The notes below the pieces were generated by a model. It worked only from the letters and a program-made list of their open reading frames with translations, ran no database searches and was not told the DNA's origin. Positions 8,999 through 36,169 of a DNA stretch of 36,211 nt are shown in pieces. Position numbers and translations under genes: made by a program. Source of the stretch: Hellea sp. (GTDB lineage: Bacteria; Pseudomonadota; Alphaproteobacteria; Caulobacterales; Maricaulaceae); assembly GCA_020629195.1 (NCBI GenBank), contig JAHDDT010000001.1, positions 1-36,211 on the forward strand, read 5' to 3'. Each line of letters begins with the position of its first letter. Position 1 is the first letter of the stretch.

Positions 8999-9002
8999 AC
9001 CG

Positions 9003-16262: not shown

Positions 16263-16272
16263 AGGATAAGAG

Positions 16273-16608
16273 ATGTTTGAAATTCATTGTCCTTATTGCA
16301 ACGAAAAGCGGCCTGAGATTGAGTTCGCTTATGCAGGTGAAGCGCATTATGTGCGCCCAACGGCAAAAGAGCAGAGCGAAATGTCTGATGAAGACTGGTC
16401 ACGCTATATGTTCATCCGCGATAATAAACGCGGTGAACATGCTGAACGTTGGTGGCACAATGCGGGATGTAATATGTTTTTCAACGCTATTCGCAACACG
16501 GTTACCGATAAATTCGTGATGACCTATAAAATGGGGTTGCCGCCCCGAACTGACAAACAGATTGATGCGGCTCGACGAACAGATGCCAAAGAAAAGGCGT
16601 CATCATGA
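16273..16608 (+). CDS. soxD: Heterotetrameric sarcosine oxidase subunit delta
   Basis: This 111-residue protein carries the zinc site typical of SoxD: Cys6 and Cys9 in HCPYC, then His62 and Cys66 in WWHNAGC. The first GEAHYVRP and later NTVTDKFVMTYKMG segments are family landmarks. The start has the leader AGAGGATAAGAG, and its TGA overlaps the soxA ATG by four bases. It is a structural subunit, with no catalysis of its own known. Confidence 0.95.
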   Translation: MFEIHCPYCNEKRPEIEFAYAGEAHYVRPTAKEQSEMSDEDWSRYMFIRDNKRGEHAERWWHNAGCNMFFNAIRNTVTDKFVMTYKMGLPPRTDKQIDAARRTDAKEKASS

Positions 16609-19565
16609 GCGCTTTTCGTAAAACAGGTCGAGGCCGTGTTGACGCTTCAAAGGTGATTAATTTCACTTTTGATGGCAAGTCTTATCAAGGCGTTCAAGGT
16701 GATACAGTCGCATCAGCTTTACTGGCCAATGGCAATCATCTCATGGGCCGCAGTTTTAAATATCACCGCCCGCGCGGGGTTTTAGGCGCAGGCTGGGAAG
16801 AGCCCAATGCGCTTATCGCTGTGGATAGAGGTAAGGGTCGGGTCACGCCGAATGTTCGCGCCACAACACAGGAAATCTATGAGGGTCTGAAAGCTGAGAG
16901 TCAGAACCGCTCACCGAATTTGAAGTTCGATATGGGGGCTTTCAACAATGCCTTTTCTATGTTCTTCCCAGCAGGATTTTACAACAAGACTTTCATGTGG
17001 CCGAAAAGCTTTTGGGATAAGGTCTATGAGCCTTTCATCCGGAATATGGCAGGTCTTGGCCCTGCGCCTGACGCGGATGACCCTGATGTTTATGCGAGTG
17101 TATATGGGCACTGTGAAACGCTGATTATCGGCGCGGGCCCCGCTGGCATTGCCGCGGCTCTGGCGGCGGCTAAAAATGGCGAGCGTATTATACTTGTCGA
17201 TGAGAATGCACAAATGGGCGGAAGCTTACTCTCCACTCCAAGCATTGAAATTGACGGCAAGCCCGCAGGCAAATGGCTCGAGACTTCGCTTAAGGCTTTA
17301 GCCAAAGCTGAGAACGTGACGCTGATGACGCGCACAACAGCAACAGGCTATTATCACGATAATTTCGTCGCGCTTGCGGAGCGTATAACGCACCATGTTC
17401 CAAATGCGGAAATTGGCAAGGTGCGCGAGGCGCTACACCGTATTCGCGCAGGGAAAGTTATTCTTGCCCAAGGCGGTATTGAACGTCCTTTGGTCTTTAA
17501 TGGAAATGATCGTCCTGGCGTCATGCTCGCCTCTGCCGCGCAGACTTATCTAGGCGAATATGGCGTTGCAGTGGGTAATGAAGTCGCCGTATTTACAAGT
17601 CATGATAGCGCCTATCAGGCTGCATTTGATGTGGCTGATGCGAACACCCGAATTGCCGCTATTATTGATGTGCGCGGCACTATTCGGGATGATCTCATCA
17701 TGGGCGCAACAGAGCGCGGCATAAAAGTTATAAAGTCCGCAGCTATCACCAAGACCTTTGGCAAGCTTCGCGTCAAAGCCTGTGAAGTTTACGAGCCTGA
17801 GAGTGGAAACAAAACGAAACTTAATTGCGACGCTATATTGATGAGCGGTGGCTGGACGCCAAGCCTGCATCTGTGGTCACATTCAAAGGGCGGAATTAAA
17901 TGGGATGCAGATTTAGCCGCTTATATTCCTGACGCGCCGAATGAGAATGCTGTTTGTATTGGGGCTTGTAATGGCGACTTTGGCATCGCGGCCGCTTTAA
18001 GCGCAGGTCATAAAGCGGGCGGGGGACGTAAGACTTATAAAACGAATGAAACTGATTTTGGAACAGGTCTCGTCCTGAGCAGTCTTCCAAGTTATCTCGA
18101 CAGCTCCAAGCAAAAAGCCTTTGTCGATTTCCAAAATGATGTGACTGAAAAAGATATTAAACTTGCGGTCAGCGAAGGCTTTAAATCAATTGAGCACGTT
18201 AAGCGCTACACCACAAATGGCATGGCGACTGATCAAGGTAAAACGTCCAACCTCAATGCATTGGAAATCGCATCCAAAGCCGTGGGTAAACCCATTGAAA
18301 AAGTGGGCCTTACCACATTCCGTCCGCCCTATACGCCGACGACATTTGGGACCTTTACAGGGTACCGCGATAATGAATTATTCGATCCGACGCGCAAGAC
18401 GCCCATTGACCCTTGGGCCGAAGCTAATGGAGCGGCTTTTGAACCTGTCGGGCATTGGCGCAGGGCGTGGTATTTTCCGAAGGAGGGCGAAGATATGCAT
18501 GCCGCCGTTGCGCGGGAATGTAAGGCGACGCGCGATAGTCTTGGAATTTTTGATGCCTCCACATTGGGTAAGATTGAAGTCGTTGGCCCTGACGCGGCAA
18601 AATTCATGAATTTGATGTACACCAACCCTTGGAGCAAGCTGCCTGTCTTAGGGTGTCGTTACGGGCTTATGTGCCGTGAAGATGGTTATATCTATGATGA
18701 TGGAGTTGTCGGTCGCATGGCTGAAGACCGTTTCCATGTGACCACAACAACTGGCGGCGCGCCGCGTGTCTATCGCCATATGGAAGATTATCTGCAAACT
18801 GAATTTCCTGAACTTGATGTCTGGCTGACATCCACAACCGAGCAATGGGCTGTGATTGCGATTAACGGGCCCAACGCTCGAAAGCTGATTGAACCTTTTG
18901 TTGAAGGCATTGACCTCTCTGCAGACTCTTTTCCGCATATGACCTTGCGCGAAGGAAAGATTTGCGGCGTTCCGACCCGTCTTTTCCGCGTGAGTTTTAC
19001 AGGCGAGCTTGGTTTTGAAATAAATGTCCCCGCTCATTATGGACGCATGGTTTGGGAAACACTTTTTGAAGAAGGCCAAAAATATGACATTTGTCCTTAC
19101 GGCACGGAAACCATGCATGTGCTTCGCGCGGAAAAAGGTTTCATTATTGTGGGGCAAGATACTGACGGAACGGTAACGGCGCATGATGCGGGGATGTCTT
19201 GGGCTGTCTCTAAAAAGAAAAGAGATTTTGTCGGGAAGCGTTCACTGGCGCGTCCTGACCTTGTGGCCGAGGGCCGCAAGCAACTTATTGGGCTTCTGAC
19301 GGAAGACTCTAAAGAGGTACTCGAAGAAGGCGCGCAAATTGTAGAGGATCCCAATCAGCCAATTCCGATGGACATGCTGGGTCACGTCACATCAAGCTAT
19401 TGGAGTGAATCCCTAGGGCGTTCGATTGCTATGGCTGTGGTGAGAGATGGATTTAACCGCATGGGCGAAACGCTGAACATCCCAATGCCCGACAAAGTCA
19501 TTAAAGCAAAGGTGGTCAAGCCCGTCTTTTATGATCCGAAAGGGGAGAGATTAAATGTTGTTTGA
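16605..19565 (+). CDS. soxA: Heterotetrameric sarcosine oxidase subunit alpha
   Basis: The 986-residue alpha subunit has the expected order of domains. First is an N-terminal 2Fe-2S-like fold of about 100 residues (FDGKSYQGVQGDTVASALLA, with GRSFKYHRPRG). Next is a pyridine-nucleotide domain with GAGPAG at 176-181 and VDENAQMGGSL. The C-terminal GcvT-type tetrahydrofolate domain and barrel start near residue 600 (RAWYFPKEGEDMHAA, FRVSFTGELGFEI, HDAGMSWAVSKKKRDFVGK). The folate domain takes up the methyl-derived carbon made at the beta subunit. The start overlaps soxD by four bases and the stop overlaps soxG by eleven. The length is normal. Confidence 0.96.
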   Translation: MSAFRKTGRGRVDASKVINFTFDGKSYQGVQGDTVASALLANGNHLMGRSFKYHRPRGVLGAGWEEPNALIAVDRGKGRVTPNVRATTQEIYEGLKAESQNRSPNLKFDMGAFNNAFSMFFPAGFYNKTFMWPKSFWDKVYEPFIRNMAGLGPAPDADDPDVYASVYGHCETLIIGAGPAGIAAALAAAKNGERIILVDENAQMGGSLLSTPSIEIDGKPAGKWLETSLKALAKAENVTLMTRTTATGYYHDNFVALAERITHHVPNAEIGKVREALHRIRAGKVILAQGGIERPLVFNGNDRPGVMLASAAQTYLGEYGVAVGNEVAVFTSHDSAYQAAFDVADANTRIAAIIDVRGTIRDDLIMGATERGIKVIKSAAITKTFGKLRVKACEVYEPESGNKTKLNCDAILMSGGWTPSLHLWSHSKGGIKWDADLAAYIPDAPNENAVCIGACNGDFGIAAALSAGHKAGGGRKTYKTNETDFGTGLVLSSLPSYLDSSKQKAFVDFQNDVTEKDIKLAVSEGFKSIEHVKRYTTNGMATDQGKTSNLNALEIASKAVGKPIEKVGLTTFRPPYTPTTFGTFTGYRDNELFDPTRKTPIDPWAEANGAAFEPVGHWRRAWYFPKEGEDMHAAVARECKATRDSLGIFDASTLGKIEVVGPDAAKFMNLMYTNPWSKLPVLGCRYGLMCREDGYIYDDGVVGRMAEDRFHVTTTTGGAPRVYRHMEDYLQTEFPELDVWLTSTTEQWAVIAINGPNARKLIEPFVEGIDLSADSFPHMTLREGKICGVPTRLFRVSFTGELGFEINVPAHYGRMVWETLFEEGQKYDICPYGTETMHVLRAEKGFIIVGQDTDGTVTAHDAGMSWAVSKKKRDFVGKRSLARPDLVAEGRKQLIGLLTEDSKEVLEEGAQIVEDPNQPIPMDMLGHVTSSYWSESLGRSIAMAVVRDGFNRMGETLNIPMPDKVIKAKVVKPVFYDPKGERLNVV

Positions 19566-20100
19566 TCAAGCCATCGATATCCCTGAGTGTTTAAACGCAG
19601 AGGCTCTAACGGTTTCGCTGATGGGTGAAAAAGCGCGCTATAGTTTGCGCCTTAAATCCGCAGATGTTAGCGCTATAAAAAAAGCGAGCGGTTTGAAGCT
19701 TCCCGCCAAAATTATGGGCGCATCGCACGGTAAAGACGTTACATGTGCAAAGCTCGGCCCTGATGAGTGGATTGTTATTGCTGACCCCGTCCAAAAGCCA
19801 AAGCTGGATAAGGCTCTGGCAAAAGTCTCTAAAGATTTTACTTGCAGCGTTACAGATATATCGCACCGCAATGTGGGGTTTGGCATTACGGGAGCAGACG
19901 CGGCAAAGCTTATAAATGTGGGATGTCCTCTGGATTTATCATTAGAAAAATTTCCCGTTGGCAAAGCCGTACGTACATTATTTGAAAGCGCGTCTATTCT
20001 TCTGATCCGCACGGATGAGCAGAGCTTTCATATGGAATGTTGGCGCTCCTTCGGCCCTTATCTGAGAGACTTTTTTGCGAGGGTCGTCACAACGCGTTGA
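19555..20100 (+). CDS. soxG: Heterotetrameric sarcosine oxidase subunit gamma
   Basis: The 181-residue protein is the small GcvT-fold gamma subunit. Visible landmarks are GPDEWIVIAD, VTDISHRNVGFGITGADAAKLINVGCPLDL, GKAVRTLF and the C-terminal SFHMECWRSFGPYLRDFF. The start ATG sits inside the end of soxA behind GGGGAGAG, indicating coupling. It is the last gene of the plus-strand run. Only 29 bases separate it from the convergent SDR gene, and I see no clear terminator hairpin there. The usual partners of sox operons (glyA, purU, folD) do not follow. Confidence 0.93.
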   Translation: MLFDQAIDIPECLNAEALTVSLMGEKARYSLRLKSADVSAIKKASGLKLPAKIMGASHGKDVTCAKLGPDEWIVIADPVQKPKLDKALAKVSKDFTCSVTDISHRNVGFGITGADAAKLINVGCPLDLSLEKFPVGKAVRTLFESASILLIRTDEQSFHMECWRSFGPYLRDFFARVVTTR

Positions 20101-20855: not shown

Positions 20856-20862
20856 GAAAATC

Positions 20863-24604: not shown

Positions 24605-26206
24605 ATGTCCACCACCGATGATAGCACTGCTGATGAGAGCCTCAGTTTAAAGACGGCCAGTTCCGGGTTTTACGCCGGCTTTAATCCAGTTGTCGCGATA
24701 GGGTCAAAAGTTCTTATTGGTATTTTGATTGTTTGGGCAGGCCTATTCCCATCTGAAGCGGGCGCAGTCTTGCTTAAGATTCAGAATTGGACAATTTCAG
24801 CATTTGGGGGATGGTATGTGTGGGTCACCGCCTTTTATGCCATCGTCTCTTTGGGCATAGCTTTCTGGCCTAAATCGGGGCGCATCAAACTCGGTAAGCC
24901 CGATGAGACGCCTGAATTTTCGCGCTTTTCATGGTTTTCTATGATGTTTGGGGCGGGCATTGGTGTCGGTATGCTAACCTATTCCACGGCAGAGCCTATA
25001 TTCCATTTTGCGAATAATCCGGACGTTATCAAAGGTCTTTCCGACGGACAGAGCGCCAATAATGTGCGAAATGCTTATAAGTGGGCGATGCTGCATTACG
25101 GTATAACCCCTTGGGCCTGTTACGGTATTGTCGGAATGGCGTTAGGTTATTTTGCTTATAATCGTAATTTACCGCTCTCCTTTCGGTCTTCTTTAAAACC
25201 GCTTTTTGGAAAAAGACTGGAAGGCGGCCTCGGCAATGTCGTGGATATTGTAGCCATCCTCGCGACAGTCATTGGCGTGAGCGTTACGATTGGGTACGGC
25301 GTTTCTCAATTCGCGTCGGGCGTCTTTAATATCACCGCTTTTGAATGGATTAGCGCTGAGAACGGCAAGCCGACTTTGATAGCACAGCTGCTCGCATTGC
25401 TTCTGATTATTGGCGCCTCAATATTCTCAGCGATTTCTGGTGTCGATAAGGGCATTAAGTGGTTGTCTAACATTAATATGGGGTTGTCGTTTTTCTTGCT
25501 CGCCTTCTTTGCTGTTTTCGGCGCGACCATTTTTGCTTTCAAGCAGTTCTTTGTGACCCTTTGGGATTATTTCATCTCGCTCCCGGCAATGTCATTTACC
25601 GTGTGGTCTGAAGGCGAGTTAGCAATTTGGCAAGGCGCTTGGACCATTTTTTATTGGGCGTGGTGGATTGCCTTTGCACCTTTTGTCGGCTTCTTCCTTG
25701 CGCGGGTTTCGCGTGGTCGGACCATTCGTGAATATGTCTTAGGCGCGATGTTTGTGCCAGCGGCGATGGGACTTGTTTGGTTTACATTAGTTGGCGGCAC
25801 AGCGATAGATCTGGAGCTGTCGGGCGTGGCGCAAGGCAGCATCGTCAATGCCGATATTTCAGCGCAGCTTTTCCAAACAATCAACCTTATCCTCACGCCG
25901 CTTATGGCCAAGCTCATGTCATTTGTGATCGTTATTTTGCTGCTGACCTATCTGGTCACCTCAGCGGACTCGGCCATTCTTGTGATCAATACAATTACGT
26001 CTGCGGGCAGCCGCGCAAGAGCCCACACGCGTCACATTATCATTTGGGGCGTGATCTATATTGCTGTAGTGGCGGCCTTGCTGACAGCGGGCGGTATGGA
26101 TGCCTTACGTTCAGCCATGATTGTTGGGGCTTTGCCATTCTCTGTTGTGACGGCTTTGATGGCTATATCACTTATGAAAGCGCTTATTACGGACCGTAAA
26201 AATTAA
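24605..26206 (+). CDS. BCCT-family betaine/onium-compound transporter
   Basis: The 533-residue integral membrane protein fits the 12-TM BCCT family (LeuT fold). Landmarks are FGAGIGVGMLTYSTAEPIFHF near 115-135 (the unwound TM helix with substrate and ion contacts), the tryptophan-rich core WTIFYWAWWIAFAPFVG at 346-362, and FFLARVSRGRTIREYVLG after it. LVTSADSAILVINT near residue 453 is the second helix lining the site. BCCT carriers import glycine betaine, choline, carnitine, proline betaine, ectoine or DMSP with Na+ or H+. This one has short cytoplasmic ends and lacks the long C-terminal osmosensor of BetP, which suits a nutritional role. A good AAAGGGAAATT leader precedes the start. It converges on dmdA, whose product demethylates DMSP. 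Confidence 0.94.
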   Translation: MSTTDDSTADESLSLKTASSGFYAGFNPVVAIGSKVLIGILIVWAGLFPSEAGAVLLKIQNWTISAFGGWYVWVTAFYAIVSLGIAFWPKSGRIKLGKPDETPEFSRFSWFSMMFGAGIGVGMLTYSTAEPIFHFANNPDVIKGLSDGQSANNVRNAYKWAMLHYGITPWACYGIVGMALGYFAYNRNLPLSFRSSLKPLFGKRLEGGLGNVVDIVAILATVIGVSVTIGYGVSQFASGVFNITAFEWISAENGKPTLIAQLLALLLIIGASIFSAISGVDKGIKWLSNINMGLSFFLLAFFAVFGATIFAFKQFFVTLWDYFISLPAMSFTVWSEGELAIWQGAWTIFYWAWWIAFAPFVGFFLARVSRGRTIREYVLGAMFVPAAMGLVWFTLVGGTAIDLELSGVAQGSIVNADISAQLFQTINLILTPLMAKLMSFVIVILLLTYLVTSADSAILVINTITSAGSRARAHTRHIIIWGVIYIAVVAALLTAGGMDALRSAMIVGALPFSVVTALMAISLMKALITDRKN

Positions 26207-26225: not shown

Positions 26226-26255
26226 GCAAGCTACCTTATTTGAAAGGTAGTTTGC
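26226..26255. terminator. Hairpin between convergent BCCT and dmdA genes, possible bidirectional terminator
   Basis: GCAAGCTACCTT (26226-26237) pairs with AAGGTAGTTTGC (26244-26255) across a six-base loop, with one G-T wobble. It lies in the convergent junction and includes the dmdA stop codon. Neither side has a strong T-run, so termination strength is uncertain. Confidence 0.5.
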
Positions 26256-27342
26256 AAATGGTAGCTTCACGGTCGCCATTGGGTGTTTTCACAGTGACGA
26301 CATTGCCTATATCCCAATGGTCGCGTCCAATCATGCCGATCGCGACATTGGTTTTAAAATCGGGCGACCATGCGGCTGAGGTAACTTGACCAATCTGAGA
26401 GCCTTCATGGGTAACAGGCCAAACATTTGGGCAGGACGGAACGGCATCGCCAGAAATGGAAAGACCGCGTATTTGCTGTTTTGGACCCTCGTTTTGTTCT
26501 TTACGAAGAGCATCAGCCCCTATGCAGCCGCTCGCCGCAGGACCTTTGCAAAACCGTCCTAAACCAGCTTCGTAAGGTGTGTTTTCAATGGTCATGTCAT
26601 TGCCGTAAGATAACAAACCGCCCTCAATCCGCTCAATGAGGTTCGGACAGCCAGCTTTGACATCCAAATCTTTACCTGCTTCGAAGAGCGCGTCCCATAG
26701 GGCTTCGCCTTGATCCGAGCCTTCGACATAGATTTCAAAACCGCCTTGCACAGAATAACCTGAGCGCGCGATTGTATGCTCTTTTCCATTGAAGGATATC
26801 TTGCGGTGTCGAAAGAATTTAAGGTTTGGGACATCCTCGCCAAATACTCTTGCGACCAGAGTGTCTGATTTGGGGCCTTGTATGGCCAAAGGCGAGACAT
26901 CAGGTTCGTGGATTTGGACATTAAGGCCTTTGCCAGCGGCCAGTCCCTTAACCCAATACATCAAGTCAGAGTCAGCTAGCGATATCCACCAATGGTTATC
27001 ATCATGCTTTACTGCGACAGGGTCGTTAAGCATGCCGCCATTTTCATCCACCACGGGAATGTAATAACACTGGTCATCTTTCATCTTCTTCAGATCGCGC
27101 GGCGTAAGCATTTGGATAAGCCGGGCAGCATCTGGTCCTTTAACTTCGACTTGCCGCTCACAGGCGACATCCCAAACCTGCACATGTTTTTTTAGGTGAT
27201 GATAGTCAGCCTCCACGCTGTCAAAGACGGTCGGCAACAACATGTGATTATAGACTGTATAGCCTTTGACCCCGTGGGCTGTATTCTTATCTGTCCAGGG
27301 CGTGCGGCGCAGACGGCGCGAAATAGATAAAACAGGCTGCAT
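26236..27342 (-). CDS. dmdA: Dimethylsulfoniopropionate demethylase (GcvT-fold)
   Basis: The 368-residue protein is a single-domain GcvT relative. It is much closer, by memory of the sequences, to marine DmdA (SAR11 and Ruegeria) than to glycine-cleavage T protein. Shared landmarks are SISRRLRRTP, VKGYTVYNHMLLPTVFDS, HVQVWDVACERQV, DQCYYIP, GGMLNDPVAVK, RSGYSVQGGFEIYVEG and LSYGNDMTIENTPYE. DmdA moves a methyl group from DMSP to tetrahydrofolate, giving 3-methylmercaptopropionate and 5-methyl-THF, without redox chemistry. The downstream genes dmdB and dmdC are not in the window. It sits 141 bases behind an FAD oxidase on the same strand, and that gap holds two palindromes. The start has an AAGGGG leader eight bases away. 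A DmdA-like paralogue acting on another onium compound cannot be excluded. Confidence 0.82.
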   Translation of the reverse strand: MQPVLSISRRLRRTPWTDKNTAHGVKGYTVYNHMLLPTVFDSVEADYHHLKKHVQVWDVACERQVEVKGPDAARLIQMLTPRDLKKMKDDQCYYIPVVDENGGMLNDPVAVKHDDNHWWISLADSDLMYWVKGLAAGKGLNVQIHEPDVSPLAIQGPKSDTLVARVFGEDVPNLKFFRHRKISFNGKEHTIARSGYSVQGGFEIYVEGSDQGEALWDALFEAGKDLDVKAGCPNLIERIEGGLLSYGNDMTIENTPYEAGLGRFCKGPAASGCIGADALRKEQNEGPKQQIRGLSISGDAVPSCPNVWPVTHEGSQIGQVTSAAWSPDFKTNVAIGMIGRDHWDIGNVVTVKTPNGDREATICKLPFK

Positions 27343-27483: not shown

Positions 27484-28833
27484 TTAACTCCACGGGAAGG
27501 GGCTGTTAGACGTCGGGTGTAACTCGCCTTCGGCATAGCGAGAGAATCTGAATGGCGTTAGCAGCGCCGAGCTTTCCCCCATAATATGTTGCGCTACCAA
27601 TTTGCCAACGCCAATCATTTTATAGCCGTGATTGCTATCCGCCAGAATATAAGCATTTTCGCAAAATTCATCAAAGACGGGGAAGCTGTCAGGTGTGAAG
27701 CAACCCACGCCGCCAGAGGGTTCTTTATGGTATGAGTCCATCAAGCCTTCAAAGCGCTTATGGCAATGCGCCAAAGCCGAGACCCACATATGCGCAAATT
27801 CAGGTGAGCTAATCCATTCAGGAGAAGCTGGGCCGTAAGGGTCTAATTGCAGCTCATCGACAGGAGTTGTGACGGGATAGGGCATTGCGCCGCCTTGGAC
27901 GCCGCCAAAGTGAAAGTCAGGTTTATAATAAAGCCCCCAAATCTTATCTTGCTCAATCACAGACCCATCGACGGTTGAATAAAGCGTAGCATCTGTGTCC
28001 ACATGCATGACGGGAGGTTGATTGCCATCATTGGTTTTAAACATGTCTGGATCAACATTTAAGACCCCTTCCTCGAGCTGCCAAAACGTCCACATATTTA
28101 TGCCGTCATGTGTTTGGCCGTCTTTGCCTTTAATGCTGACAGTCTTGGGAAGCTCTAGCATGTTCCAAAAGTCTCGCACCCAAGGCCCTGCGCCGATAAC
28201 AACATAATCGCACGCGACGTCACCTTTGGAGGTTTCAACGGTTTTTATGGCGGAGGAGGTACCATTTGCGCGCTTGAAGCCTGTAACCTCAACACCCGTT
28301 ATGATGCGAACACCTTCGGCCTCGGCTTTGCCGGCTAATCCATACATGGATTTCGTATTATTTGCGTAACCGCCTTTTTTCTCGTGTAAGACAGAGGTGA
28401 TATTCTGAGCTTGCCAATCCTCGTAAATATTTTCCATATAGCTTTTGCAGTCTGCCTCACCCTCAATGAGAACGGAGTCATACCCAATGGATTGCTGCTG
28501 CTCATATATTTCGGAAATGTCAGCGTGCATAGACTCGCAAGATATCTGCATATAGCCGACGGGATGGTAAGAATAAGCTTCGGCATCAGACTCCCAAACA
28601 TCGACGGAATGGGCCATCAATTCACGCATAGCAGGTTGATAGTAATTATTTCGTACAACGCCGCAGGCTATGCCCGAAGCTCCTGAGGCTATCCCGCCTT
28701 TGTCTAGGATGATGATGTCTTCGCCGCTTCCTTTGCCCGACGCTTTTAGGTCCAATGCGAGGTGGTAAGCGGTTGAGAGGCCATGTATACCTGCACCGAT
28801 AATAACATATTTCGATGACGTGGGAAAACTCAT
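27484..28833 (-). CDS. FAD-dependent amine/amino-acid oxidoreductase (DAO/SoxB family)
   Basis: From the ATG at 28833 the product is 449 residues. An upstream in-frame ATG at 28863 is rejected because the 28833 start has AGGAG at ideal spacing. The FAD loop is GAGIHG at 13-18, followed by the second flavin contact LDKGGIASGASG. The C-terminal GCFTPDSFPVFDE and LADSNHGYKMIGVGKLVA segments complete the DAO fold. It resembles single-subunit sarcosine/N-methyl amino acid oxidases and SoxB, but has no folate domain of its own. The next gene on the strand encodes the free GcvT-fold DmdA. Oxidation of an N-methylated amine or amino acid is the family expectation. The substrate is unknown. Confidence 0.88.
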   Translation of the reverse strand: MSFPTSSKYVIIGAGIHGLSTAYHLALDLKASGKGSGEDIIILDKGGIASGASGIACGVVRNNYYQPAMRELMAHSVDVWESDAEAYSYHPVGYMQISCESMHADISEIYEQQQSIGYDSVLIEGEADCKSYMENIYEDWQAQNITSVLHEKKGGYANNTKSMYGLAGKAEAEGVRIITGVEVTGFKRANGTSSAIKTVETSKGDVACDYVVIGAGPWVRDFWNMLELPKTVSIKGKDGQTHDGINMWTFWQLEEGVLNVDPDMFKTNDGNQPPVMHVDTDATLYSTVDGSVIEQDKIWGLYYKPDFHFGGVQGGAMPYPVTTPVDELQLDPYGPASPEWISSPEFAHMWVSALAHCHKRFEGLMDSYHKEPSGGVGCFTPDSFPVFDEFCENAYILADSNHGYKMIGVGKLVAQHIMGESSALLTPFRFSRYAEGELHPTSNSPFPWS

Positions 28834-28839
28834 TGGAAA

Positions 28840-28844
28840 CTCCT
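28840..28844 (-). promoter_or_regulatory. Ribosome-binding site deciding the FAD oxidase start
   Basis: On the minus strand AGGAG lies six bases before the ATG at 28833. This makes that ATG the start and leaves the one ten codons upstream as part of the leader. Confidence 0.8.
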
Positions 28845-28899
28845 GATCGTGATCTAGAGCCATAAACAGTCTCGTTTTCGGAACAACTAAATATGCCGC

Positions 28900-29043: not shown

Positions 29044-30006
29044 ATGAAGATTCCAAATAACTTTGACCTTCGGTCTTTGCAAGTTTTTGTCATAACAGCA
29101 GACCAAGGGGGTATGACCCAAAGCGCTAAAGTATTGCGCATGACCCAATCCGCGGTCTCTCAAATCATTGCAGGACTGGAAGACGCTGTCGGCGTCAAAC
29201 TTTTTGACCGTTCAGTTAGGCCTATCGTCTTGACGTCGGCGGGGCGCATATTGTTAGAGCGCGGGCGGCAAATTCTGCGTGATACCAAAGAAGCCTTTCG
29301 AGAAACACGCACATTGGAGCGCCGCCGCTTAGCGTCTCTGACAATTGCGATGACGGATAGTATGTCAGCCGTGCTGGGCTCTCATCTTTATGAGACAATG
29401 AACGAAGTTTCGAGCTATTGGCGATTTTGGAGCGGCCTATCACCCTATCACCGCGAAGAGTTTCTCACCCATAATATCGACCTTATCATAACAACAAGTG
29501 ACGTCATGGAAGATGTCAGCGGTTTGAACCGCTATAAAGTTTTTCAAGAGCCTTATGTTCTTATTTTCCCTAAAAATCATAAAGGCTCAACAAAGCTTGA
29601 AGATGGAGAACGGGATTTGCCGTTTCTGAGATTTTCAATTCGTTCTGCCATGGGGCTTAGAATCGAAAGGCAGCTTAACCGATTGCGTCTTAAGTTCCCT
29701 GATATTGCTGAATTTGACCGCGCCCCTGCGCATACGCTTGCGGTTGCAAAGGGACTTGGTTGGGGTGTCACAACGCCCTTATGTTTGCTCGAAAATCCTG
29801 AGTTGATACCGCACGTGGATATTCAGCCTATTATGCGCGGAAGTTTTAGCCGTCATTTTGACCTGTTATCCCGTGAAGATAACCTAGGGGATATTCCTGA
29901 GAAAATTGCAATTGAATCGCGTCGTATTCTGAAGAAACATTGTCTTCCTAAGCTCTATGATCAAGTGCCTTGGCTTGAAGAGATGATCTTGCAAAATGAG
30001 GATTAA
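29044..30006 (+). CDS. LysR-type transcriptional regulator
   Basis: The 320-residue regulator has the N-terminal winged helix-turn-helix (residues ~8-65: LRSLQVFVITADQGGMTQSAKVL..., with TQSAVSQIIAGLEDAVGVKLFDR). A periplasmic-binding-like effector domain follows from about residue 95 (LTIAMTDSMSAVLG, DLIITTSDV, HTLAVAKGLGWGVTTPLCLLE). It is divergent from the FAD oxidase-dmdA pair and upstream of the Rieske gene, so it probably controls one or both. The effector may be a betaine or DMSP derivative, but this cannot be read. The start follows AGGGGTTTGGGAT. An intrinsic terminator ends its transcript. Confidence 0.93.
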   Translation: MKIPNNFDLRSLQVFVITADQGGMTQSAKVLRMTQSAVSQIIAGLEDAVGVKLFDRSVRPIVLTSAGRILLERGRQILRDTKEAFRETRTLERRRLASLTIAMTDSMSAVLGSHLYETMNEVSSYWRFWSGLSPYHREEFLTHNIDLIITTSDVMEDVSGLNRYKVFQEPYVLIFPKNHKGSTKLEDGERDLPFLRFSIRSAMGLRIERQLNRLRLKFPDIAEFDRAPAHTLAVAKGLGWGVTTPLCLLENPELIPHVDIQPIMRGSFSRHFDLLSREDNLGDIPEKIAIESRRILKKHCLPKLYDQVPWLEEMILQNED

Positions 30007-30099: not shown

Positions 30100-31236
30100 A
30101 TGAGCTTACAAAACGTCATAAAACCATTGGCTACCGCTCGCGGGCTTCCCAATGAGCATTATATCACTGCGGATATGTATGCGCGAGAGCGTGAGGTGCT
30201 TTTCTTCAAAAATTGGTCGGCTGTTGCCTTTGAGAGCGACGTAAAAAAACCTGGTGATGCGTTTCCTGTGGACTTTATGGGAGTTCCGCTTTTGCTCGTG
30301 CGGGCCAAGGATGGCGCGGTAAATGTCTTCCAGAATACGTGTCGCCACCGCGGTATGATATTAGTTGATGAGCCCACCCATCTAAAAGGCCCCATAAGAT
30401 GTCCCTATCACAGTTGGTGCTATTCTCATGAAGGTAAATTGGTTCGAACGCCTTATGTGGGCGGTGTCGACATAGATACGCATGAGGCCATAAAGCCTAC
30501 CGAGCTTAGTCTTTTCGAAATGAAAAGCCATATTTGGCACGGCGTTGTCTTCGTGAACATCTCTGGGGATGCAGCACCTTTTGAGGAGGTCCATAAAGAC
30601 CTGTTAAAGCGGTGGTCGGAATTTCAGCAACCCTATCACCTTGGCGGTACGGCCAGCCGTTTTGATATGAAGGTATCTGCGAATTGGAAGCTAGCAATTG
30701 AGAATTTTTGCGAGTCTTATCATCTGCCTTGGGTGCATCCTGAACTTAATGAAATATCGCCGATTAATGTTCATTATCCTATCGATGATAGCTCGGGCTA
30801 TGCCGGGCAGGGTAGCCGCAACTATAATCAACTTGTCGGCAAAGACGATAAGCGCTTTCCTGATTTTAAAAACTTATCACCCATATGGGAAAAGCAGGCT
30901 GAATATGTTTCATTTTTCCCCAATGTCCTCATGGGTGTTCACCGCGATCACACTTATGCCACCATTTTAATGCCGCAAGGCGCGGAAGAGACATTTGAAC
31001 GCGGCGCCTTATTTTACGCAGATGAGCATATTGATACGCCGCAATGGCAAGACCTACTCAAGGAAAATACACGTATTTGGCAAGATGTGTTTTCAGAGGA
31101 TATCGGCGTTGTCGAAGGCATGCAAAAGGGCCGTCATGGGCCGATGTTTGATGGCGGTAAATTCTCGCCTGTCATGGACGGTCCAACCCATGTTTTCCAT
31201 AAGTGGGTCGCACGTCAGATGCAGTCAAATGAATAG
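30100..31236 (+). CDS. Rieske non-heme iron oxygenase alpha subunit, quaternary-ammonium demethylase type
   Basis: The 378-residue protein has a Rieske cluster motif Cys81-x-His83 (NTCRHRG) and Cys101-x2-His104 (RCPYHSW). The mononuclear iron site is ENFCESYHLPWVH, with His208 and His213, and Asp334 in SEDIGVVEG is the likely third ligand. The bridging residue between the two centres is Glu205 where ring-hydroxylating dioxygenases have Asp. Glu here is typical of carnitine monooxygenase CntA and, as I recall, of glycine-betaine and stachydrine demethylases. Expected chemistry is N-demethylation or cleavage of a quaternary amine with release of formaldehyde or another aldehyde. These enzymes need a flavin/2Fe-2S reductase, and none is encoded in the window. 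It lies 70 bases before the formate dehydrogenase genes. Substrate choice among betaines is not resolved. Confidence 0.88.
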   Translation: MSLQNVIKPLATARGLPNEHYITADMYAREREVLFFKNWSAVAFESDVKKPGDAFPVDFMGVPLLLVRAKDGAVNVFQNTCRHRGMILVDEPTHLKGPIRCPYHSWCYSHEGKLVRTPYVGGVDIDTHEAIKPTELSLFEMKSHIWHGVVFVNISGDAAPFEEVHKDLLKRWSEFQQPYHLGGTASRFDMKVSANWKLAIENFCESYHLPWVHPELNEISPINVHYPIDDSSGYAGQGSRNYNQLVGKDDKRFPDFKNLSPIWEKQAEYVSFFPNVLMGVHRDHTYATILMPQGAEETFERGALFYADEHIDTPQWQDLLKENTRIWQDVFSEDIGVVEGMQKGRHGPMFDGGKFSPVMDGPTHVFHKWVARQMQSNE

Positions 31237-31306: not shown

Positions 31307-31786
31307 ATGGTTACCCTACTAAATACAGTTGAAGATAAGTTTGCGCGCGAGATCTGCCGAGATCACGGTGACAAATCAGATGAGCTCTTGGAGATTTTAC
31401 ACGCGGTACAGCATGAGAAAGGTCATCTCAGTGATGGCGCGCTAAGGACAATTGCGCAGGCCCTTAATATATCCCGGGCTGAAATCCATGGTGTGGTGAG
31501 CTTCTATCATGATTATAAACGCGAAGCTGGCGCTCAATTCACGCTCCATATTTGCCGTGCAGAGGCGTGTCAGGCGGTTGGCGCAGATGAGCTTATCACG
31601 GAAGCCGAAACACTATTTGACGTTAAGCTCGATGGGGGCGGTGAGGATGTGGCTTTGGCAGCAGCTTACTGTCTTGGAAATTGCGCTTTGGGTCCGGCTG
31701 TCTTAGTCAATGAGAAACTTTATGGCCGCGTAGACAAAGCCAAAATCAAAGCCATTGCGGCGCAACATATGGCGCAAAACTCATGA
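31307..31786 (+). CDS. fdsG: NAD-dependent formate dehydrogenase gamma subunit (NuoE-like)
   Basis: The 159-residue protein is the thioredoxin-like 2Fe-2S subunit. It has an N-terminal helical part (LLEILHAVQHEKGHLSD, HGVVSFYHDYKRE) and four cysteine ligands in CRAEACQAVGA and AAYCLGNCALGP. It passes electrons within the soluble Fds complex. An AGGA leader precedes the start, and the gene overlaps fdsB by four bases (ATGA). Similarity to NuoE alone would not decide, but the order gamma-beta-alpha with a molybdenum subunit makes it fdsG. Confidence 0.94.
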   Translation: MVTLLNTVEDKFAREICRDHGDKSDELLEILHAVQHEKGHLSDGALRTIAQALNISRAEIHGVVSFYHDYKREAGAQFTLHICRAEACQAVGADELITEAETLFDVKLDGGGEDVALAAAYCLGNCALGPAVLVNEKLYGRVDKAKIKAIAAQHMAQNS

Positions 31787-33327
31787 GCGTAAAAATTTAC
31801 ATCCCACGCGATTCCGCAGCTTTGTCAGTTGGCGCTTTTGAGGTGGCTGAAGGCATCAAAGCAAAAGGCGGAGATGATGTTCAAATCATCGCTACAGGCT
31901 CTCGCGGCATGTTATGGCTTGAGCCTTTAGTCGAAGTCGAGACGCCAGAGGGCCGCGTAGCCTATGGCCCGGTTCAGCCAGAAGATGTGAAGAGCTTATT
32001 TGACGCTGATTTTCTAAAAGGCGGCGATCATAAGTTACGGCAGGGTTTGACAGAAGAAATTCCTTATTTCGCAAAACAGGACAGACTAACCTTTGCCAGA
32101 GTTGGCGTTATTGATCGTTTGAGCCTTGAAGATTACGAAGCGCATGGCGGCCTTAAAGGGTTGAAGGCGGCGCTTTCAATGACGCCTGAAAAAATCGTTG
32201 AAGAGGTACTGGAGTCAGGACTTCGCGGGCGCGGCGGTGCTGGCTTCCCAACAGGCATAAAATGGAAGACCGCTCTCGCGCAAACATCTGAACAAAAATA
32301 TATTTGCGCAAATGCGGATGAAGGCGATAGCGGCACCTTTGCGGACCGCATGTTGATGGAGGGTGATCCGTTCTCTCTCATCGAAGGCATGATAATTGGC
32401 GGCCGAGCTATCGGGGCCCAGACGGGCTATGTCTATATCCGTTCAGAATATCCACATGCCATTCGCGTGATGCGGCGCGCTGTAAAAGCGATGGAAGATG
32501 CTGGCTGGCTGGGCCAAAACATAGGCGGATCAGATGCCCATTTTGATCTTCACATCCGTGTTGGTGCGGGCGCTTATATTTGCGGCGAAGAAAGTTCGAT
32601 GCTCGAAAGCCTCGAGGGCAAGCGTGGGCAAGTCAAAGTCAAACCGCCCATCCCGGCGATCTCGGGTCTGTTTAACAAACCCACCATTGTGAATAATGTC
32701 CTAACCCTTGCGACTGTGCCTTTTATTTTATCCGAAGGCGCGAAAACATATGCAGATTATGGACAGGGCCGATCGCGCGGGACACAGCCTTTTCAGCTTG
32801 CTGGGGATGTGGCGCAAGGTGGGCTCATTGAAATGGCTTTTGGCGTTACGATTGAAGAAATTGTCAATGAATTTGGCGGAGGCACGCGTTCAGGCCGCCC
32901 TGTTAAAGCCGTTCAAATTGGCGGGCCTTTGGGCGGATATTTAACGCCAGAGCAATTCAGCACAAGCTTGGGTTATGAAAGTCTTTCAGAAGCCGGGGGC
33001 ATGATTGGTCACGGCGGTATTGTAGTTTATAACGACACCACAAGCATGATGAAAATGGCGCGTTACGCGATGGAGTTTTGCGAGCTTGAGTCTTGCGGAA
33101 AATGCACGCCTTGCCGCATCGGCTCTGTACGCGGGAAAGAAACGCTCGATAAGATAGCTGCGGGTGACGATGTCGCTGCCAATCTGGATGTGCTAGACGA
33201 TTTGTGTGATCTCATGGAAGAGGCCTCGCTTTGCGCTATGGGTGGGTTAACGCCAATGCCTGTGCGAACAGCGATGAAAGCCTTTCCAGAAGAATTTACG
33301 GGCCCCCTAGAAAAGGCTGCGGAGTAA
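31783..33327 (+). CDS. fdsB: NAD-dependent formate dehydrogenase beta subunit (NuoF-like)
   Basis: The 514-residue flavoprotein has an N-terminal thioredoxin-like extension of about 90 residues, as in FdsB. The FMN/NAD loop is SGLRGRGGAGFPTGIKW (GRGGAG at 149-154), with YICANADEGDSGTF and the NAD-contact YICGEESSMLESLEG after it. The 4Fe-4S ligands are in ESCGKCTPCRIG plus the later Cys in EEASLCAMGG. It takes electrons from the alpha subunit and reduces NAD+. It overlaps fdsG by four bases and is four bases ahead of fdsA. Confidence 0.96.
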   Translation: MSVKIYIPRDSAALSVGAFEVAEGIKAKGGDDVQIIATGSRGMLWLEPLVEVETPEGRVAYGPVQPEDVKSLFDADFLKGGDHKLRQGLTEEIPYFAKQDRLTFARVGVIDRLSLEDYEAHGGLKGLKAALSMTPEKIVEEVLESGLRGRGGAGFPTGIKWKTALAQTSEQKYICANADEGDSGTFADRMLMEGDPFSLIEGMIIGGRAIGAQTGYVYIRSEYPHAIRVMRRAVKAMEDAGWLGQNIGGSDAHFDLHIRVGAGAYICGEESSMLESLEGKRGQVKVKPPIPAISGLFNKPTIVNNVLTLATVPFILSEGAKTYADYGQGRSRGTQPFQLAGDVAQGGLIEMAFGVTIEEIVNEFGGGTRSGRPVKAVQIGGPLGGYLTPEQFSTSLGYESLSEAGGMIGHGGIVVYNDTTSMMKMARYAMEFCELESCGKCTPCRIGSVRGKETLDKIAAGDDVAANLDVLDDLCDLMEEASLCAMGGLTPMPVRTAMKAFPEEFTGPLEKAAE

Positions 33328-33331
33328 GATA

Positions 33332-36169
33332 ATGGCATTATTACAAGAGACGGATTACGGAACGCCTAAGGTCAAATCAGACAAGGTTGTCTCGGTTGAA
33401 ATTGACGGTCACAACATTTCTGTGCCCGAAGGGACATCTGTCATGCGGGCGGCCGCAGAAGCAGGCATTCCCATCCCCAAGCTCTGCGCAACGGATAGTC
33501 TCAATGCATTTGGCTCCTGCCGTTTGTGCGTGTGTAAAGTCGAAGGCAAACGCGGAACGCCTGCCTCCTGCACAACGCTTGTCGAAGAGGGTATGAAGGT
33601 CACAACACAAGATGACCATCTTGCGAAAATCCGCAAAGGCGTGATGGAACTTTATATCTCTGATCACCCGTTGGATTGCCTTACCTGTTCTGATAATGGC
33701 GATTGCGAACTTCAAGATATGGCGGGCGCTGTGGGCTTGCGTGAAGTACGTTATGGTCATGAGGGTGAAAACCACACAGATGCCCCGACGGATGACTCTA
33801 ATCCCTATTTCAGCTTTGATGAAAGCAAGTGTATTTTGTGTTCGCGTTGCGTGAGGGCTTGCGACGAAGTGCAAGGGACTATGGCGTTAACCGTCGAAGG
33901 CCGCGGATTTAAATCTAAAATCTCAGCCTCAATGGGCGAGAAGTTTATGGAGTCGGAATGCGTCTCTTGCGGCGCTTGCGTCCAAGCTTGCCCAACTGCG
34001 ACACTTCAAGAAAAATCCGTGATTGAACACGGCGTGCCGGACCGTACGGTTCTAACAACCTGCGCTTATTGCGGTGTTGGCTGTTCCTTTAAAGCTGAGC
34101 TTAAGGGTGATCAGGTCATTCGCATGGTGCCTTACAAAGACGGTAAAGCTAATCATGGTCATAGCTGTGTGAAGGGCCGTTTCGCCTTTGGATATGCGAC
34201 CCATAAGGACCGTATCACGCAGCCCATGATACGCGAAAATATTACAGATGCATGGCGCGAAGTCTCTTGGGAGGAAGCGTTCAAATTCTCAGCAGACCGC
34301 TTGAAAGCGGCGCAGGCCAAATATGGTATTAAGTCCATTGGCGGCATTACATCAAGCCGCTGTACTAATGAGGAAGTTTGGCTCGTTCAGCGTCTTATCC
34401 GTCAAGGCTTCGGGAACAATAATGTTGATACCTGCGCGCGTGTTTGTCACTCACCCACGGGCTATGGTCTCAAACAGACCTTTGGCGAAAGCGCTGGCAC
34501 ACAGAATTTCGACTCTGTGATGGAAGCGGATTGCATCATGGTGATTGGGTCAAACCCCACCGATGCCCATCCGGTCTTTGGGTCACAAATGAAGCGGCGT
34601 CTGCGCCAAGGGGCCAAGCTTATCGTTGTTGATCCGCGAGGCATTGATCTTGTGCGTTCCCCGCACATTAAAGCGGATTATCATTTACAGCTTCAGCCCG
34701 GAACCAATGTCGCTTTGATAAATGGCCTTGCCTATGTCGCGGCGAAAGAGGGCCTGCTCGATGAAGAGTTTATCAAATCGCGGACTGATATTGCGAGCTA
34801 TAAGGAATGGAAAGCCTCGATATTAGACGAGGTGAACTCACCTGAGAGCGTGTCTGAAATAACAGGCGTTCCAGCCGAGGATATTATCGGCGCAGCGCGG
34901 CTCTTTGCGGCGCAAAATAATTCGGCCATTTATTACGGGCTCGGCGTCACGGAACATAGCCAAGGCTCAACCATGGTTATGGGTATGGCTAATTTTGCGA
35001 TGGCGACGGGTAATATTGGTCGCCCCGGCGTCGGCGTAAATCCAATGCGCGGACAAAATAATGTCCAAGGGTCTTGCGATATGGGCAGCTTCCCGCATGA
35101 GCTATCGGGCTATCGTCCTGTTGGCGATGATGCTGCACGCGGATTATTTGAAACAAAATGGGGCACAAAGCTTGATAATAAGCCGGGTTACCGCATTCCC
35201 AATATGTTCGATGAAGCGTGCGCGGGAACCTATAAAGGTATGTATATTCAAGGCGAGGATGTGGCGCAATCTGATCCAAATATTCAGCATGTCGAAGCGG
35301 CCCTCAAAGCGCTTGATATTTTGATTGTGCAGGACTTATTCCTCAATGAAACCGCACGTTTTGCGCATGTCTTTTTACCGGGAACAAGTTTTCTCGAAAA
35401 AGACGGCACCTTCATCAACGCTGAACGCCGCATCAATCGCGTGCGCCCCGTCATGAAACCCGCCACAGGAAAGCATGAATGGGAAGTCACTCAAGATTTA
35501 GGCCGTGCTTTGGGTATTGATATGGGCTTTAACTCGGCTTCTGAAATTTTAGACGAAATCGCAGATCTCACGCCTCAATTTGCGAATGTCAGTTTCAAAG
35601 TTTTGGATGATGCAGGCAGCCTTCAATGGCCTGTCAATGATGAGCATCCTGAGGGCGCGGAAGTTATGCATGTCGGCGAATTTGTGCGCGGTAAGGGGCA
35701 ATTTGTTCCAACTGAATATCAGCCCACACCTGAGCGTACCAACCGTAAGTTTCCGCTTATACTCACAACGGGCCGAATATTGTCTCAGTATAATGTCGGA
35801 GCGCAAACGCGCCGCACAGAGAATAATCAATGGTGGGATGAAGACGTTCTTGAAATTCATCCATCTGATGCTGAGGCTCAAGGCGTGAGAGATGGGCAGT
35901 GGGTTTCGCTTAAATCCCGTAAGGGTGAAATTACGCTACGGGCCAAGCACTCAGACCGTATGGCGCCGGGCGTTGTATATACGACTTTCCACCATCCTGA
36001 CACGGGCGCAAATGTTGTTACGACGGATAATGTGGATTGGGCGACAAGCTGTCCTGAATATAAGGTCACAGCCGTCGCTGTTGCGCCGGCAAACCATAAA
36101 TCCGATTGGCAGATGAATTATGAGGATGAGCTCTCTGAGTATCGCAAGATCGCTGAACCTGCTGAGTAA
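33332..36169 (+). CDS. fdsA: NAD-dependent formate dehydrogenase alpha subunit (molybdenum bis-MGD)
   Basis: The 945-residue catalytic subunit has an N-terminal 2Fe-2S domain (Cys52, 63, 66, 80) and a His-Cys3 cluster (His112, Cys116, 119, 125). Two 4Fe-4S ferredoxin motifs follow (CILCSRC at 167-173, CVSCGAC at 210-216). The 4Fe-4S next to the molybdenum cofactor uses Cys244, 247, 251 and 279. The molybdenum ligand and proton relay are Cys372-His373 in ARVCHSPTGYG. The C-terminal molybdopterin-binding barrel has TTGRILSQYNVGAQTRRTENN. Cysteine and not selenocysteine is used at the active site. The enzyme oxidises formate to CO2 with NAD+ in the cytosol. The fdsC/fdhD and fdsD genes expected downstream are beyond the window. 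Confidence 0.96.
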   Translation: MALLQETDYGTPKVKSDKVVSVEIDGHNISVPEGTSVMRAAAEAGIPIPKLCATDSLNAFGSCRLCVCKVEGKRGTPASCTTLVEEGMKVTTQDDHLAKIRKGVMELYISDHPLDCLTCSDNGDCELQDMAGAVGLREVRYGHEGENHTDAPTDDSNPYFSFDESKCILCSRCVRACDEVQGTMALTVEGRGFKSKISASMGEKFMESECVSCGACVQACPTATLQEKSVIEHGVPDRTVLTTCAYCGVGCSFKAELKGDQVIRMVPYKDGKANHGHSCVKGRFAFGYATHKDRITQPMIRENITDAWREVSWEEAFKFSADRLKAAQAKYGIKSIGGITSSRCTNEEVWLVQRLIRQGFGNNNVDTCARVCHSPTGYGLKQTFGESAGTQNFDSVMEADCIMVIGSNPTDAHPVFGSQMKRRLRQGAKLIVVDPRGIDLVRSPHIKADYHLQLQPGTNVALINGLAYVAAKEGLLDEEFIKSRTDIASYKEWKASILDEVNSPESVSEITGVPAEDIIGAARLFAAQNNSAIYYGLGVTEHSQGSTMVMGMANFAMATGNIGRPGVGVNPMRGQNNVQGSCDMGSFPHELSGYRPVGDDAARGLFETKWGTKLDNKPGYRIPNMFDEACAGTYKGMYIQGEDVAQSDPNIQHVEAALKALDILIVQDLFLNETARFAHVFLPGTSFLEKDGTFINAERRINRVRPVMKPATGKHEWEVTQDLGRALGIDMGFNSASEILDEIADLTPQFANVSFKVLDDAGSLQWPVNDEHPEGAEVMHVGEFVRGKGQFVPTEYQPTPERTNRKFPLILTTGRILSQYNVGAQTRRTENNQWWDEDVLEIHPSDAEAQGVRDGQWVSLKSRKGEITLRAKHSDRMAPGVVYTTFHHPDTGANVVTTDNVDWATSCPEYKVTAVAVAPANHKSDWQMNYEDELSEYRKIAEPAE

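Follow-up and report, generated by a model that had tools for sequence, protein, structure and literature searches.

What does a gene for dimethylsulfoniopropionate (DMSP) demethylase do among genes for the breakdown of betaine? DmdA-family enzymes transfer a methyl group from DMSP to tetrahydrofolate (THF), giving MMPA (3-methylmercaptopropionate) and 5-methyl-THF, and dmdA is a widely used marker for the fate of algal DMSP sulfur, methanethiol versus the climate-active DMS. A first-pass annotation of the stretch of DNA analyzed here (the window; 36,211 nucleotides from Hellea sp., assembly GCA_020629195.1, contig JAHDDT010000001.1) had read one gene as dmdA outside its usual dmdBCD setting and had linked the use of DMSP to betaine catabolism. 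We asked whether the gene encodes a true DmdA and whether this enzyme is coupled to its neighbors. A 69.8-kb contig (C4) begins with the window; the assembly to which it belongs measures 2.18 Mb and is 76.5% complete. Among 65 relatives of the window DmdA in named genomes, the closest was that of Hellea balneolensis DSM 19091 (L006:10001-11104; 89% identity over 368 residues), followed by proteins from bins labeled Hellea, Hyphomonadaceae or Caulobacterales (63-77%). The host is hence a Hellea relative, and the NCBI taxonomy places Hellea in the Robiginitomaculaceae, Maricaulales.

The open reading frame at 26236-27342 encodes a full-length GcvT-fold protein, as annotated, and its coordinates are exact. 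It runs from ATG to stop on the minus strand, and the same frame on the plus strand of this interval contains many stops. All three landmarks quoted at first pass (SISRRLRRTP, YTVYNHMLLPT and VWDVACERQV) occur in the translation, and their counterparts in the solved structure 3tfh are KSRRLRSTP, YTIYNHMLLPA and IWDVAAERQV. Both GcvT-fold domains scored above their cut-offs (PF01571, 148.9 bits; PF08669, 52.7 bits). The protein reached 607.5 bits in NCBIfam NF009133 (dimethylsulfoniopropionate demethylase), with a curated cut-off of 410, whereas three GcvT models gave 133-182 bits, below their own cut-offs of 236-459. Its best solved relative was PDB 3tfh (376 bits, E=2e-111), with residues 6-367 aligned to residues 7-368 of 3tfh; the next solved structure was a GcvT, presumably from B. 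subtilis, with 130 bits. The identity to 3tfh was 46%, as it also was for the R. nubinhibens protein, and so close a match to a solved enzyme leaves no doubt about the fold. Although 3tfh was deposited under the title 'GcvT-like Aminomethyltransferase protein', we take it to be the Pelagibacter DmdA of Schuller et al. This agrees with a review that, in the excerpt available, describes the structure of the Pelagibacter DmdA and names two characterized DmdAs, from R. pomeroyi and P. ubique, and gives Km values of 5.4 and 13.2 mM (PMC5395565).

A DmdA/GcvT tree, proposed at first pass as a check, placed the window DmdA within the clade that holds the verified SAR11 enzyme 3tfh and apart from GcvT. 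In a careful tree of 43 rows, hand-picked from 82, the window fell into a clade of 36 rows (support 99/100) together with 3tfh, its SAR11 kin, and gammaproteobacterial and roseobacter DmdAs; R. pomeroyi SPO1913 itself is absent, and other roseobacters stand in for that verified DmdA. The 12 rows of the window's family formed one clade (100/99), which joined the roseobacter group at 94/92 (not starred). Outside the 36 rows fell one row each from Anaerolineales and from an actinobacterium, a second DmdA-like group belonging to the window's own family, and GcvT. Two quick trees concurred with the careful tree on the main placement, and the sister group of the family clade was wider in the second quick tree than in the careful one. 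Excluded before the first quick tree, which contained very long GcvT-type rows, were L001 (the window itself), L003-L005 (domain copies, in whose place two window domains entered), and the fragments L045, L066 and L070; the second was made after dropping four of the 82 rows (L002, L069, and the two window domains).

The features around dmdA are collected in Table 1. Along the contig, a dimethylglycine-dehydrogenase-like gene is followed by soxBDAG, a five-gene cluster on the minus strand, BCCT, dmdA, DAO, LysR, the Rieske oxygenase, and formate dehydrogenase. The alpha and beta subunits of sarcosine oxidase exceeded their family cut-offs and the gamma and delta subunits were just below. For formate dehydrogenase, the gamma and beta subunits were NuoE/NuoF-like and below the cut-offs, and the alpha subunit exceeded its own. 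The best NCBIfam family of the Rieske oxygenase was GbcA, with 104.6 bits far below the cut-off of 670. Of 385 genomes sampled across the class, 47 (its own included) had a match to the DAO protein, the others at 40-70% identity. We rejected DAO as a general partner of DmdA, because no DmdA match was present around DAO homologues in any of 29 other stretches of 3.3-4.4 kb or in any of 10 stretches of 5-19 kb. Homologues of DAO and the Rieske oxygenase adjoin again in a genome of another family (L146:8271-10895; 65% and 57% identity). DAO may therefore pair with the Rieske oxygenase instead of DmdA, which suggests a demethylation pair for some N-methylated osmolyte.

Two further gene groups lie on the sox side of dmdA. 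The minus-strand cluster at 20130-24395, between sox and BCCT, encodes two SDRs, a fumarylacetoacetate-hydrolase-type protein (closest to 2,4-didehydro-3-deoxy-L-rhamnonate hydrolase, below the cut-off), an epimerase-like protein, and a HalD-like protein; H. balneolensis has this cluster as well, and none of the other family loci examined showed it. At 7565-11686, an aldehyde dehydrogenase gene precedes two genes for proteins of 324 and 569 amino acids. Homologues of these three genes stand side by side upstream of dmdA in a locus labeled Pelagibacteraceae (L062; 55% over half the length, 53%, and 37%), and similar genes presumably occur near betaine catabolism in Pseudomonas.

The BCCT gene does converge on dmdA, with 29 bp between the two, and the first-pass annotation had proposed that its product could bring in DMSP. 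Its best solved relatives were a trimethylamine transporter (319 bits), an unnamed BCCT (309 bits), a choline transporter (276 bits), BetP (259 bits), and DddT (174 bits). DddT, the solved DMSP transporter, was thus not the closest in this comparison, and by these scores the window protein appears closer to carriers of trimethylamine, choline, and betaine. DddT is a BCCT protein that imports DMSP, according to an excerpt of PMC13270143.

Table 1. Positions of dmdA and of genes considered with it (window coordinates unless a contig is given)
Feature	Position	Strand	Details
dmdA, DMSP demethylase family	26236..27342	minus	368 aa; GCV_T and GCV_T_C domains
Dimethylglycine-dehydrogenase-like protein	12564..15011	plus	DAO-type part and GcvT-type part; no family cut-off met
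Heterotetrameric sarcosine oxidase	15012..20100	plus	soxB 15012-16262, soxD 16273-16608, soxA 16605-19565, soxG 19555-20100
BCCT transporter	24605..26206	plus	converges on dmdA
DAO-type FAD-dependent oxidoreductase	27484..28863	minus	459 aa; same strand as dmdA, upstream, 141-bp gap
LysR-family regulator	29044..30006	plus	divergent from the DAO-dmdA pair
Rieske oxygenase alpha subunit	30100..31236	plus	nearest solved relative carnitine monooxygenase, 99 bits
Formate dehydrogenase	31307..36169	plus	gamma 31307-31786, beta 31783-33327, alpha 33332-36169
DddP homologue	contig 39159-40535, beyond window		M24 protein; 12 kb from dmdA
DmdB candidate	C4:57566-59182		30 kb from dmdA, same contig
DmdC candidate	contig C111		the genome's one PF12806 protein

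The gene dmdA lies in an island of ∼50 kb with betaine and C1 genes. Past the window, the contig carries an AraC-type gene (named from its sequence), the DddP homologue, formate-THF ligase (Fhs), an MtgC-like corrinoid protein, and an MTHFR-like protein. Further on are a methyl-THF:corrinoid methyltransferase, an MttB-type methyltransferase, a second sox set, MetY, an alpha/beta hydrolase, a FadB-like protein, and the DmdB candidate. Fhs exceeded its cut-off, the methyl-THF:corrinoid methyltransferase exceeded a domain cut-off, the MttB-type methyltransferase was below its cut-off, and MetY exceeded that of the OAH/OAS sulfhydrylase subfamily. The second sox set was named by homology to the first, from a SoxA-like match and, for the rest, the order of open reading frames. 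The DddP homologue reached 546.8 bits in the NCBIfam DddP profile, below the cut-off of 600, and its best solved relatives were 4rzy (462 bits) and 4b28 (427 bits), which we take to be DddP structures; the next M24 protein scored 61 bits. A DddP-like gene (360 bits against the cut-off of 600) directly adjoins dmdA in L062:3990-6472, in the bin labeled Pelagibacteraceae (NAT182).

The genes expected downstream of dmdA in the pathway were also searched for. The first-pass view that dmdA lies outside dmdBCD holds for its immediate surroundings and may not hold for the genome, as the contig also carries a DmdB candidate and another contig a DmdC candidate. The best solved relative of the former was 6ihk (281 bits, next 268) and of the latter 6ijc (722 bits, next 657). 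The records name these an AMP-binding protein and an acyl-CoA dehydrogenase; presumably they are the structures of DmdB and DmdC, respectively. The DmdB candidate exceeded the PRK08162 cut-off and reached 335 bits in the NCBIfam 3-(methylthio)propionyl-CoA ligase model, for which the cut-off is 822; the ligases adjoining dmdA in two other loci, L029 and L053, also miss this cut-off (312 and 274 bits). The ligase is 56% identical to one that lies upstream of dmdA in a SAR11 locus with one gene between, and the alpha/beta hydrolase on our contig is 33% identical to the other of the two genes directly upstream of dmdA in that locus. The DmdC candidate is 44% identical to a SAR11 cluster protein, and the NCBIfam DmdC model was not among its family matches. 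Because of these narrow margins and the failed ligase cut-off, we term both proteins candidates. The genome has eight crotonase-domain matches; none of these loci was matched by the crotonase of the R. atlantica cluster in a search for DmdD/AcuH at E<=1e-20 in this 76.5% complete assembly. The methanethiol oxidase family had no match in the two genomes searched for it. The best scores in the AcuI model were 34 bits in the window genome and 50 bits in H. balneolensis, indicating that neither has a near AcuI, while two roseobacter AcuIs scored 426 bits, themselves below the cut-off of 440.

We surveyed 137 genomes of the family for the setting of dmdA. Twenty had a match at E<=1e-60; 18 of them carry this dmdA (63-100% identity), comprising the window, 11 loci from the search for relatives and six more loci, and two have only the outer paralogue. 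LysR lies beside dmdA or the dmdA-DAO pair in 16 of the 18, sarcosine oxidase genes lie on the other side of dmdA in 14, and formate dehydrogenase belongs to the setting in 11, with Fhs-MtgC in four of the other seven. DAO is found in nine of the 18 settings, and BCCT adjoins dmdA in five. The misses include short contigs: L013 and L102 stop before the sox side, L101 stops inside LysR, and dmdA of L032/L107 lies close to the end of a contig. One locus, L007, lacks LysR, and its only sox homologues are more distant ones on the other side. The order of genes from the DmdB candidate to the aldehyde dehydrogenase is the same in H. balneolensis. Among 11 relatives, the DddP homologue was found in nine and not found in two, and was 12-13 kb from dmdA in four. 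Orthologues of the DmdB (69-91%) and DmdC (72-97%) candidates were full-length in 10 of the 11 and fragmentary in the eleventh; that of DmdB is on the dmdA contig in only four of the 11, at 14-34 kb from dmdA. The proposed tie between DMSP use and betaine catabolism thus stands as a gene linkage only, with dmdA persistently near betaine and C1 genes in the family.

A linkage of this kind could arise if a true dmdA landed in the betaine/C1 island without functional coupling to it. The patchy distribution of dmdA over the family would fit such incidental neighbors, as would its lower conservation compared with DAO, SoxA and SoxB (for example, 74% versus 83, 81 and 90% in L009) and the scans for promoters and terminators around dmdA, which gave no excess over shuffled sequences (9 versus 9.1, and 6 versus 6.9). 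The adjacency to LysR and to the sox block recurs, however, across several genera, though the genes between come and go, and we regard a chance association as a real but rather unlikely explanation.

We next compared conserved residues. To avoid circularity, the consensus was taken from 49 clade rows outside the window's family, which gave 69 columns with at least 97% conservation. The window DmdA keeps 68 of these, compared with 37-61 in nine outer DmdA-like rows and 19-28 in four GcvT-type rows. In the 28 columns without a match in the four GcvT-type rows, a subset defined by these rows themselves, the window keeps 27 and the outer DmdA-like rows 11-25. The single missed column is a change of K to V at position 199 of 3tfh, where 48 of the 49 DmdAs outside the family have K; within the family, V occurs in 8 of 19 rows, the window included, and K in 11 of 19, one genome being represented twice among the 19. 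Y206 of 3tfh, which we take to be a pocket residue, is kept in 68/68 clade rows and in all nine outer DmdA-like rows. At position 197, the 68 clade rows have Y (41 rows), W (22), or F (5), and the window has Y, the commonest state. Position 171 of 3tfh as printed is K; the published DMSP-contact residue 'W171' uses the alignment numbering of PMC7487153.

The K-to-V change in a near-invariant column, the largely betaine and C1 neighborhood, and the Rieske/DAO pair upstream of dmdA could all be accommodated by a DmdA-fold methyltransferase that, on account of the betaine island, has shifted to another onium substrate such as glycine betaine, dimethylsulfonioacetate, or an N-methylated compound. 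We consider such a shift improbable, given the 68 retained columns and the invariant Y206, the nesting of the window among SAR11 and roseobacter DmdAs, the K still present in most of the family rows, and the occurrence of DmdB and DmdC candidates in each of the 11 relatives, in fragmentary form in one. That an ordinary GcvT or other aminomethyltransferase, which has the same fold and whose families do match the protein, was taken for DmdA is extremely improbable, as such a misannotation is ruled out by profile, tree and conserved columns, and a separate relative encoded in the genome (contig 74; 25-27% identical) takes the GcvT side of the tree. Profile, tree, and residues together uphold the first-pass identification, and the window gene very probably encodes a DMSP demethylase. 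We note that the presence of a dmdA gene by itself is ambiguous evidence of active demethylation, as stated in an excerpt of PMC7157515.

Five genomes that bear dmdA also encode the second DmdA-like protein, which is ∼39-42% identical to the window DmdA and lies outside the main clade. Its loci are L095:7297-12319 (relative G030), the similar L096:5878-10879 and L098:2236-6126, and also L094 and L097. The row in L095 reads Sulf_transp, DUF6691, DmdA-like, OsmC, crotonase, and DmdB-like, and its DmdA-like protein scored 386.8 bits, just below the DmdA cut-off of 410; a row of this type is possibly a parallel sulfonium pathway. Further DmdA-like genes occur in bins labeled Anaerolineales (L056) and Actinobacteria (L065), where binning errors are possible; L056 keeps 61 of the 69 conserved columns.

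Taking the evidence as a whole, we favor, with moderate confidence, a true DmdA that would be coupled to the oxidation of betaine and C1 methyl groups in its island. From the sequences, family memberships, gene order, and conservation observed here, we infer all reactions and the carbon flow as follows. In Hellea and its kin, dmdA would have become part of a chromosomal island that handles methylated onium osmolytes. DmdA would move one methyl group of DMSP to THF, as its family does, yielding MMPA and 5-methyl-THF, and the latter would pool with one-carbon units from betaine, dimethylglycine and sarcosine. As in the scheme proposed for SAR11, the MTHFR-like protein, Fhs and formate dehydrogenase would oxidize the pooled units to CO2 for energy. 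MMPA could be converted by the DmdB candidate, the DmdC candidate, and a crotonase into methanethiol, from which MetY could make methionine. The DddP homologue would provide a competing cleavage route for DMSP; if it is active, acrylate would have to be handled without a near AcuI. LysR might control dmdA, as suggested by their adjacency. A bolder version, which we offer tentatively, is that in Hellea and its kin a single co-regulated catabolic island of ∼50 kb unites DMSP demethylation and cleavage, methanethiol capture, the stepwise demethylation of betaine, and the oxidation of methyl groups to CO2 via THF, that algal onium osmolytes serve as one interchangeable methyl-group fuel, and that the LysR protein beside dmdA is a switch responsive to DMSP or MMPA. 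In R. pomeroyi, by contrast, control is reportedly responsive to acrylate.

Overall, the enzyme belongs to a known family, and its setting is unusual and informative. The interest lies in the physical union of predicted DMSP, betaine, and C1 genes, found also in one cultured species as judged from gene order. Among the titles and abstract openings listed in searches of the open-licence literature, none described this island or dmdA in it. On the kelp of PMC9238374, Hellea ranked with the most abundant bacteria, and the dmdA passage in the excerpt of that paper concerns Granulosicoccus, not Hellea. The cultured H. balneolensis DSM 19091 shares the island, on which dmdA is accompanied by a DddP homologue, a DmdB candidate, and genes for betaine catabolism, and this makes the system tractable. 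It raises the questions of whether both types of osmolyte are oxidized along a single C1 route, and how cells without the acuI link balance demethylation against cleavage.

How does this setting compare with those of known dmdA genes? We searched 65 dmdA loci with AcuI, DmdB, DmdC and neighboring proteins from a Ruegeria locus and a SAR11 locus (E<=1e-20). These loci had been found via peptide patterns of the window's own protein, and counts among them therefore represent a biased sample and no census. A gene for AcuI lay within 1.5 kb of dmdA at 22 of these 65 loci and one for a DmdB-type ligase at 15; DmdC was separated from dmdA by two genes in R. atlantica and in three SAR11 loci. According to an excerpt of PMC3338564, acuI directly follows dmdA on the 3' side in 24 of 26 dmdA-bearing roseobacters. 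Hence, dmdBCD is not the general rule, and the premise that roseobacter dmdA is usually followed by dmdB/C needs correction: acuI is the commoner roseobacter neighbor, and dmdB and dmdC neighbors mark SAR11 and a minority of others. In the window, the gene directly 3' of dmdA is not acuI but the converging BCCT. The roseobacter DmdAs (R. nubinhibens, Ruegeria spp.), at 57-67% identity to the window (49% in Amylibacter), are nearest as a large group in the careful tree, and differ in setting by an AcuI close to dmdA, near relatives of which the window genome and H. balneolensis lack. Within the host's own NCBI family, Robiginitomaculaceae, dmdA has already been published: Litorimonas strain RW-G-Af-16 is reported to have dmdABC and acuH (PMC12662954, excerpt).

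The P. ubique DmdA (3tfh, 3tfi, 3tfj; SAR11_0246) shares with the window protein a full-length alignment at 46% identity, the conserved columns, and the clade. The settings of the two differ, as the genes upstream of dmdA in SAR11 loci encode an mhpC-like hydrolase, a DmdB-type ligase, and a DmdC-type dehydrogenase, whereas the window has formate dehydrogenase, LysR, DAO, BCCT and Sox. In the parts of PMC3160333 available, a SAR11 genome has dmdA, dmgdh, soxBDAG, fhs, and fdh, with methyl groups oxidized via THF, and measurements of ATP and 14CO2 backed the oxidation of methyl groups from DMSP and betaine. According to the legend of Fig. 1 of that paper, the SAR11 C1 genes lie in separate genome regions, whereas those of the window host lie in one island, which, unlike the scheme given there, also holds a corrinoid methyl-transfer set and a DddP homologue.
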